Below, piece by piece: positions 43,780-46,128 of a DNA stretch of 64,000 nucleotides (position 1 is the stretch's first letter; every line of letters starts with the position of its first letter). The DNA is taken from the NCBI GenBank assembly GCA_021373015.1, contig JAJFTJ010000004.1, forward strand, positions 1-64,000. The letters run 5' to 3'. The DNA comes from Nitrospiraceae bacterium (GTDB lineage Bacteria > Nitrospirota > Thermodesulfovibrionia > Thermodesulfovibrionales > UBA1546). The notes under the pieces were generated by a model, which made no database searches, had not been told where the DNA came from, and saw only the letters and a program-made list of their open reading frames with translations. The position numbers and the translations under genes were made by a program.

Positions 43780-44176
43780 CTATCTTCCTGTCATTATTTT
43801 CTTGAGGCGAAATAATTCTCACAACCACTCTGTTAGGCAGACATATTACCGCTCCTCTGTCAGTCCAGCCGCTTTTTATGCATATTTTGTTTTCACAAGG
43901 AGATTCTTTTATGTGAACCTTATTGTTTTTTATCTCTATTACTGTGTGCCCGAGTCTGCCTTTTACAGAAATAGATGTGTCTGCATTAAGCGGTAATTTA
44001 TATGCGGGGACTCCGTCTACTTCTACTATCACATCAATCCCTTTCGGAATGAGTTTCCCAATTAAAACAAAACCCAAAACCGGGATTATTATAAATATGC
44101 AGAGCAGAACCTTGTCAGCAAAAGTCATTCTGGCAGCGGTCTCTTTCTCTGGTTTGTTAATTTCCGTGAACCTCAA
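43763..44176 (-). CDS. NusG domain II protein (EetA-like)
   Basis: 137 residues: a membrane helix (about 26-44), then an extracytoplasmic NusG-II beta domain with ESPCENKICIKSGW and GAVICLPNRVVV; the three cysteines are conserved in this family. The start is TTG at 44176, with AAAGGA six bases upstream; an ATG 48 bases in is the alternative. It overlaps apbE by 20 bases. Function is thought to lie in flavin or electron transfer at the membrane (inference). Confidence 0.8.
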   Translation of the reverse strand: MRFTEINKPEKETAARMTFADKVLLCIFIIIPVLGFVLIGKLIPKGIDVIVEVDGVPAYKLPLNADTSISVKGRLGHTVIEIKNNKVHIKESPCENKICIKSGWTDRGAVICLPNRVVVRIISPQENNDRKIDAVTG

Positions 44177-45203
44177 TTTTATCCTTTAAGCTTTCGGTCA
44201 TGTGAATCTTTCCGCTTGAATCTATTATCATTCCTTCAATCTTCATATTATCAAGAAGGCTCAATCCCTTTTTGTATCCGATTATGAATACACCTGTTGA
44301 AAAAGAATCCGCAATATAGCCGTTCTTTGCAATAACCACTGCGGTCTGAGAAAACGCGGAAGGATATCCTGTCTTTGGATCAAGAATATGGTGGTATCTT
44401 TTCCCGTTAGAAATAAAATATCTTTCATAATCCCCTGAAGTTGAGACTGCAGAGTCAACAAGTTCTATCGTTGCAATAATCTCATCTTTCTCGCCCTTCT
44501 GTCTTGGATTTCTTATCCCAATCTTCCACGGCTTTCCGTCTGGTTTCATTCCAAATGCCTTGATATCTCCGGCAATGGCAACAAGTCCAGCCCTTATCCC
44601 ATTTGCTTTTAAAATTTCTGTTGCCTTGTCAGCAGCATAGCCTTTTGCAATTCCCCCAAGATCAGCTGACATGTTTTTCTTCTTTAAATATACTGTCTGT
44701 TCTTTTTTGTTCAGGATAATGTTTTTATAATTCACAAGGCGCAGTCTTTTCTTGATCTCCAAATCATCAGGCTTTATCTTTTTCGTAAAATCCCATAACA
44801 CTATTTGAGAACCTGTTGTTATATCAAAAGCGCCGTATGTTTTTTCTGATACATACAATGCTTTTTCAAAAATATCAAAAGTCTCCGGAGAAACCTTTAC
44901 TGGCTTTATTCCCGCATTTTTATTTATCTCTGAAAGCTCGCTTTTTTCAGAGAAAAAATTAAGGAGAGTCTCAAGTTTTTCAATCTCAACGAATGCCTTG
45001 TCAATAGCCTTTTCCGCCTTTTCGCTAGAATTAGAAACAACGCTGATTTCCACGCGTGTATCCATAAGAATCACACTTTTTCTGTAAACCTTTTCCTTCT
45101 CTTCACCGCAGGCAGACAGGATAAAAAAAGAGCAGAACAGAAAAACAGCAGAACAAATTATATTTTTTTTTGAATCAGACAATTTTCTCACATTTTCCGC
45201 CAT
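44157..45203 (-). CDS. apbE: FAD:protein FMN transferase, lipoprotein
   Basis: 348 residues. A signal helix ends in the lipobox FFILSAC; the transferase domain has LMDTRVEISV, the catalytic/Mg region ADLGGIAKGYAADKATEIL, VAIAGDIKAFG, and HHILDPKTGYPS. It attaches FMN to Thr/Ser of extracytoplasmic proteins such as RnfG, NqrC or FMN-binding reductases. First of the triad apbE / NusG-II / Gx transporter. Its flavin targets are not in the window. Confidence 0.94.
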   Translation of the reverse strand: MAENVRKLSDSKKNIICSAVFLFCSFFILSACGEEKEKVYRKSVILMDTRVEISVVSNSSEKAEKAIDKAFVEIEKLETLLNFFSEKSELSEINKNAGIKPVKVSPETFDIFEKALYVSEKTYGAFDITTGSQIVLWDFTKKIKPDDLEIKKRLRLVNYKNIILNKKEQTVYLKKKNMSADLGGIAKGYAADKATEILKANGIRAGLVAIAGDIKAFGMKPDGKPWKIGIRNPRQKGEKDEIIATIELVDSAVSTSGDYERYFISNGKRYHHILDPKTGYPSAFSQTAVVIAKNGYIADSFSTGVFIIGYKKGLSLLDNMKIEGMIIDSSGKIHMTESLKDKIEVHGN

Positions 45204-45400
45204 TTCAATTTTTGTTCATAATATCACAAAATACGAAATAGAGAGAATACTCTACCCTGATTTTACATGTTTTTTCATTTACAAAATCTCTCAGACTTGC
45301 TACATTTAGACAGGTTTTCCGGAAATGGAATAGTATGGATATTATATGTTAGTCATGGAGACACTAGAGTCCAAGAAATATGAAATGTGTCCCTTAATTT
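45204..45400. other. AT-rich spacer before the cassette
   Basis: About 200 bases with no gene. It holds the apbE promoter region on the minus strand. No operon-type terminator is visible. Confidence 0.3.
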
Positions 45401-45402
45401 TA

Positions 45403-45506
45403 CACAGTCGGACGCGGACAAGACCGCCGCGAAATTTAAGCAAGAGGAAAAAATTGCATCCAAGCAGCTTTAGGCCGGGGTCTTGCCGGTTAGCTCGGCG
45501 TTAGGC
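45403..45506 (+). repeat. Integron attC-like site, right half clear
   Basis: The right end GGTTAGCTCGGCGTTAGGC (about 45488-45506) matches attC L' and R' boxes, ending in GTTAGGC with the usual crossover after G45500. GGTCTTG (45479-45485) pairs with CAAGACC (45419-45425), giving the long hairpin expected of an attC, with an AT-rich variable loop. The left R'' box should be near 45399-45405 but is degenerate. Confidence 0.55.
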
Positions 45507-46016
45507 ATCAAAGGGGGATTGATATGAGCGTGAAGGATGTAGCCGCAAGCTTGGGTGGGTTGTTGCTGATGCTGGCATTTGCAGCGGTCGGCATCGTTAT
45601 CGTAACGCTGTTTTTCTACGGTGCAACTTGGGCCAGCACAAAGTTGCTCCCGTGGTTCTCAATGCTTACCTGGGTTGCGTTCGCAATCGTTGTCTTCATC
45701 CTTTTGCCGCTCGCTATCCCGCGGGCTACGCGTGGGTTCTCTAGCGTAGCTATGTACATCGTTTCCTACGTTTTCGGCGCCACTTTGTGGATGATGGGGT
45801 TGCTTCTAACACTCTCTATTTGGGGTATTACCGCAGTTATCATCGGCATAGTTCTTGGCGGCGTCGGCGTAGTTCCTATCGCAATGTTAGCGACGCTAAT
45901 ACACGGTTATTGGTTACCACTCGTCGAGTTAGTTTTGCTCACGGTCGCAACCTTCGGGTGTCGCATTGGTGCGATGTCGCTCGCACAGAGCCTTGAGCAA
46001 CAGAGCTATGCCTAAC
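45501..46016 (+). mobile_element. Lone integron-type gene cassette
   Basis: The unit runs from TTAGGC (45501) to GCCTAAC (46010-46016), the R'-like and R''-like borders, with one short leader and a single gene whose stop codon TAA lies inside GCCTAAC, as is typical of cassettes. The composition is visibly more G+C-rich than both flanks. No integrase gene and no second cassette are in the window, and the downstream attC palindrome is missing, so insertion at a secondary site followed by decay is the best reading. Confidence 0.55.
45524..46015 (+). CDS. Cassette-borne membrane protein of unknown function
   Basis: 163 residues, four or five hydrophobic helices, almost no charged residues between them. 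An AAAGGGGG precedes the ATG by 8 bases. No family recognised. Codon use (many GC-ending codons, GCG, CTC, GTC) differs sharply from neighbouring genes. The stop codon is part of the GCCTAAC border. Cassette genes commonly encode resistance or accessory functions, but nothing in the sequence points to a substrate. Confidence 0.65.
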   Translation: MSVKDVAASLGGLLLMLAFAAVGIVIVTLFFYGATWASTKLLPWFSMLTWVAFAIVVFILLPLAIPRATRGFSSVAMYIVSYVFGATLWMMGLLLTLSIWGITAVIIGIVLGGVGVVPIAMLATLIHGYWLPLVELVLLTVATFGCRIGAMSLAQSLEQQSYA

Positions 46017-46128
46017 GTTACATTTACCAATTTACCTATTCACCTTTGAAATTGTTTTGTTATCCAGATAAATCGGGACTCCTCGCAATGATGTTTTTGA
46101 GAGCCGCGGGCACAGCAATATTTTTTCG

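Follow-up and report, generated by a model that had tools for sequence, protein, structure and literature searches.

The DNA inserted at about 45 kb of the window, that is, of the whole 64,000-nucleotide stretch of the Nitrospiraceae contig that was analysed, is very probably a decayed integron platform, in which an attI site, its promoter region and a captured gene were kept and the integrase was lost. The insert lies between apbE and uvrA. Because it starts with a primary attI and the beginning of an integron-integrase gene (intI), we regard it as the remains of a whole platform, which departs from a sequence-only reading that had described a single cassette at a secondary site. The points against a decayed platform are that the third recognition box and the first attC are degenerate and that the captured gene has a single clear homologue. 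The module at the start of the insert is part of a set of dispersed attI platforms that extends across the order.

A conserved attI module upstream of the captured gene

A search of the apbE-uvrA region first revealed positions 45175-45317 as a segment resembling dispersed places in genomes of the family. The corresponding module is about 173-174 bp long and occupies 45178-45350 on the + strand, where it was recovered by profile searches with E-values of 5.3e-22 (profile built without the window) and 3.2e-23 (genome-wide search); its homologues adjoin intact intI. The sequence-only reading had missed this conserved upstream DNA. The left end of the module is formed by about five initial intI codons, read on the minus strand, followed by a promoter-like region for intI and the cassettes and by the core ...TTAAT-TGTT, with three recognition boxes. 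Alignment and co-variation place box 1 (ACATTTTCCGCCAT) at 45190-45203 and box 2 (CACAAAATACGAAATA) at 45226-45241, while box 3 (45321-45341) is degenerate in the window, which has lost the palindrome and is a rare outlier at this box. A putative cassette promoter (Pc) was read on the + strand at 45278-45306, as TTTACA (45278-45283), a 17-bp spacer and TACATT (45301-45306), and aligned copies have consensus-like hexamers at the corresponding place (e.g., TTTGAA-17-TACAGT). The attI core TGTTAGT lies at 45347-45353 (+ strand), with the predicted insertion point between G45348 and T45349: the copies are alike up to TGTT and then diverge, every one of them running into a different ORF.

We further compared the surroundings of the module in relatives. 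Coordinates placed it directly beside intI, in divergent orientation, in at least eight genomes, and a same-strand ORF started within 160 bp after it in 84 of 91 copies. Elsewhere in relatives it occurs by itself next to cassettes whose attC sites are canonical. With a home-made duplex-energy scorer and real control ORF ends, 27 of 83 first ORFs ended in an attC (e.g., GCATAACAATTCGCTCAAGAGGGACGCGG...CCGCGCCCCTTAGCTTGGCGTTAGGC), compared with 10 of 301 controls scored with the same cut-off, and most of these control matches were real cassettes; an earlier scorer, which this one replaced, had distinguished sites poorly from shuffles (p <= 0.05 for 13 of 84). Given that the module adjoins intI in at least eight genomes, that the copies cease to be homologous at G|TT and that attC-bearing ORFs follow, it is identified as the attI site of an integron.

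Remnants of at least two cassettes

The features named by the sequence-only reading are all present in the window, namely GTTAGGC at 45500-45506, GCCTAAC at 46010-46016 overlapping a stop codon, and a 163-residue ORF that is richer in G+C than its surroundings (GC of 0.52 for 45524-46015 versus 0.39 for the window). The hairpin proposed there did not hold up, as CAAGACC (45419-45425) pairs with GGTCTTG (45479-45485) and not with R'. A bare GTTAGGC occurs at chance level in the window (4 matches, 4.2 expected), and the longer right attC half TTAGCTCGGCGTTAGGC (45490-45506, + strand), comprising L' and R', is the sole window match to the pattern TTARCTYRGCGTTAGGC, which also fits the genuine attC of a relative (locus L141). 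The R''/L'' half is missing: no canonical left half was found at this first site, and the attC fold of 45400-45510 was no better than shuffles (z about +0.5). Nor was any attC-like hairpin found downstream of the R'' GCCTAAC. The attC content of the window amounts to the right half of one site and the R'' of another, with no foldable site, and the view that this is not a complete, mobile cassette was upheld.

Since the half-site at 45490-45506 belongs to a preceding cassette, at least two cassettes were once present, rather than the one previously proposed. The remnant of the first spans 45349-45500 (+ strand), directly beside the attI module, and includes a stretch at 45372-45394 that weakly resembles a repeat in the loci of two relatives (91% over 23 bp). 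The second cassette extends from TTAGGC to the R'' GCCTAAC (45501-46016, + strand) and has lost the remainder of its attC. A fragment of a dispersed repeat lies beside the truncated right end at 46067-46091, identical over 25 bp (100%) to a stretch of locus L041 and similar to others. As a separate observation, the CAAGAAATATGRRATGTGTCCCT repeat at 45372-45394 is common to L151 and L209 and is possibly of the REP type, near a Y1-like transposase ORF in L086.

The cassette ORF (45524-46015, + strand) encodes a 163-aa hydrophobic membrane protein without a Pfam or NCBIfam match, in keeping with the earlier statement that its family is unknown; an Rfam match was likewise absent, and no homologue was found on plasmids or viral contigs. 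Across the searched collections it has one clear homologue (67% identity over 159 aa), which resides in the chromosomal integron of Pseudoxanthomonas sp. J31 and is itself a cassette there, lying between attC sites in an array that contains seven nearly identical attC repeats. Because of this homologue, and because no other clear match was found among 396 genomes of the own phylum, the ORF appears to be a real, horizontally acquired cassette gene, and the assignment of the insert to integron cassette DNA was borne out. The gene is predicted to be unable to move and sits downstream of the attI promoter region.

One recognisable cassette ORF in a genome without intI could also arise if IntI had integrated a single cassette at a non-attI genomic site (attG), a process that is known from Loot et al. 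2024, as cited in PMC12901181. This origin is very unlikely here: 150 bp upstream there is a full-length, correctly oriented attI module that includes the intI start, another attC half stands in front of the cassette, and the cassette is not joined directly to non-attI chromosomal DNA. The upstream module and the preceding attC half indicate instead that the cassette array entered via attI.

Probable loss of the integrase and the apbE junction

Five initial intI codons (GTG AGA AAA TTG TCT, V/M-R-K-L-S) survive at 45177-45191 on the minus strand, in frame with apbE, and match the MGKLS and MAKSS starts of intI in relatives. The apbE gene (44157-45203, minus strand; Pfam ApbE, 2.9e-85) now runs at its 5' end into the module, and the joined frame reads VRKLSDSKKNIICS, with the former intI codons leading, without a change of frame, to the ApbE signal peptide. 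In relatives, apbE has its own start and merely a short gap separates it from uvrA. The earlier reading had seen no integrase near the cassette, and a genome-wide check extended this to the whole genome, in which no TIGR02249 match came near the cut-off and only Xer-like and phage-type recombinases were present. A tyrosine recombinase fragment on contig C20 was considered as a candidate IntI and set aside because it looks phage-type. Translation of ApbE may now begin in what was the intI start region (45177-45203).

Across the module set, loss of intI from complete copies can be recognised. Truncated intI genes, cut after 28-97 codons, stand beside the module at L128, L223, L226, L233 and L242; at L145, L151, L228 and L248, large internal deletions have brought the initial few codons up against the final ones, and further copies lack any intI. 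As for a relative without the insert, which had been proposed as a comparison, the apbE-uvrA insert was absent from every relative searched; these include none of the same genus, and neither the exact empty site nor an intI-bearing intermediate was seen among them.

From these remnants we infer the following course for the decayed platform. The ancestral order would have been apbE < intI < attI > cassettes, bounded by uvrA, with an attI that had three boxes and a probable promoter. IntI would have placed the cassettes at the G|TT core, and they would have been transcribed rightwards if the promoter was active. Subsequently, intI would have been deleted down to its first five codons, these being fused in frame to apbE, and a deletion of this kind is the most likely origin of the apbE fusion. 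The first cassette would have been reduced to the right half of its attC, perhaps with the repeat fragment at 45372-45394, and the second would have lost its attC after R'', beside the dispersed repeat at 46067-46091.

Dispersed attI modules across the order

Among 176 genomes in the order, 81 have the module, with up to 15 copies each; beyond the order, a few members of its class have it too, and the remainder of the phylum almost entirely lacks it. A search of the own genome returned two attI modules besides that of the window, and each of the three is followed by one cassette-like ORF. The second copy lies between prmC and prfA (L124:1903-2075; C7:25904-26063) and precedes an ORF of 318 aa and an attC that is truncated (CTCTAACAAGTCGC...), and the third (L260:1314-1442; C5:358713-358841; E = 2e-6) has its cassette-like ORF directly after it. 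Three other genera likewise have a module at the prmC-prfA site, with different cassettes or none, the yidC site is occupied in three species with different cassettes, and several module sites are empty in relatives. Two genomes (G001 and G004) carry many module copies and no intI, so some module sets may be fossils.

The number of copies per genome would also suit a mobile or regulatory repeat, such as a MITE or a promoter element, that merely precedes foreign genes and is not an attI, and some copies in genus g2 do share extra DNA at both outer ends, one pair of which (L083) looks like an inverted repeat. We consider this highly improbable, given that the module directly abuts intI in relatives, that homology among copies stops at G|TT with attC-bearing ORFs beyond it, and that just one of five loci gave a significant inverted repeat. 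An assembly artefact or contamination that joined an integron fragment to the contig is the least credible explanation of all, for although the assembly consists of 22 contigs and the cassette differs in GC from its flanks, the insert is internal, its flanking gene neighbourhood is conserved in the family, and the module is of a type native to the clade, with two further copies in the genome.

Additional sequence was observed at the ends of certain copies. Those of genus g2 (L083, L084, L087, L131, L135 and L153) share 50-90 bp to the left of the module, and most also have a common stretch of about 55-80 bp at the extreme right, which suggests that a transposable unit may carry attI together with its cassette. 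Terminal inverted repeats were rejected as a general mechanism of mobility and remain a lead, L083 being the one locus with a significant pair. In another subset (L252, L254, L255, L256, L257, L259 and L262), an extra left end, CTTCAAATGGATAGAAACAGTGTTG, abuts the module at the same base.

Relation to known integron systems

An integron is usually described as one integrase, one attI and one array. The loci reported here resemble a sedentary chromosomal integron (intI, attI, Pc and attC array) in their attI core, in the position of the putative promoter, in the cassettes with attC that are seen in relatives, and in the divergent intI that stands beside the module in relatives; they differ in that the window locus lacks intI and holds one or two cassettes, and in that several attI units lie at separate loci per genome. 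As in a CALIN (cluster of attC sites lacking integron-integrase), cassettes occur without intI, but the dispersed loci keep a recognisable attI module and usually have one attC; the window, with no complete attC, falls short of the two or more attC sites without intI of a CALIN. IntegronFinder 2 reports CALINs from two attC sites upwards by default (PMC9024848), so loci with one attC may go unreported. Standard surveys, which depend on the presence of intI or of two or more attC sites, would thus miss part of integron-borne gene traffic. The window cassette is far from any intI, like one inserted at an attG site, but it would have entered at a true attI module rather than at a degenerate genomic site.

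It is also known that a cassette array can outlive its integrase. Ancient Xanthomonas integrons with lost or inactive intI are described in PMC12444791, whereas here intI losses recur at many dispersed copies across the order. In the openly accessible literature, we found no description of dispersed, orphan or multiple attI, and a scattered population of attI platforms that mostly lack an integrase is provisionally regarded as undescribed. Such attI units persist and would turn over cassettes at many chromosomal loci order-wide, mostly without an adjacent integrase.

Co-varying recognition boxes

The three boxes (…TACGA…, …TACGAA… and …TTCGTATA), which lie up to about 140 bp apart, switch together to CCA/GG. 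Boxes 1 and 2 both carry G in 42 copies and both carry C in 25, with no mixed G/C copies (42:0:0:25), and the pairs 1-3 and 2-3 show one exception each. These box pairs are the top three associations of 5151 column pairs, and the association persists after thinning to copies less than 75% alike. The pattern, to which shared ancestry also contributes, fits IntI recognition sites of two specificities; in an IntI tree (10 sequences, about 226 aa), the neighbours of C- and G-type modules were not cleanly separated. The near-perfect co-variation of such distant boxes predicts which attI bases IntI reads.

These observations raise the tentative idea, which we hold to be possible rather than probable, of a distributed integron, whereby a trans-acting IntI, when present, would serve several scattered attI platforms, each with its promoter and cassette. 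If so, many loci, and not one array, would be the sites of cassette expression and exchange, and the boxes would correspond to matching IntI specificity classes. The order offers a natural system for testing IntI-attI specificity and action in trans. Other integron-integrase lineages are also present in the family (upstream of intI in L165, L166, L167 and L168, and L302), with attI of different boxes (e.g., GCATGCGACATAATAAT), and L302, of a different attI type, occupies the locus that is held by a module copy in a sister species.
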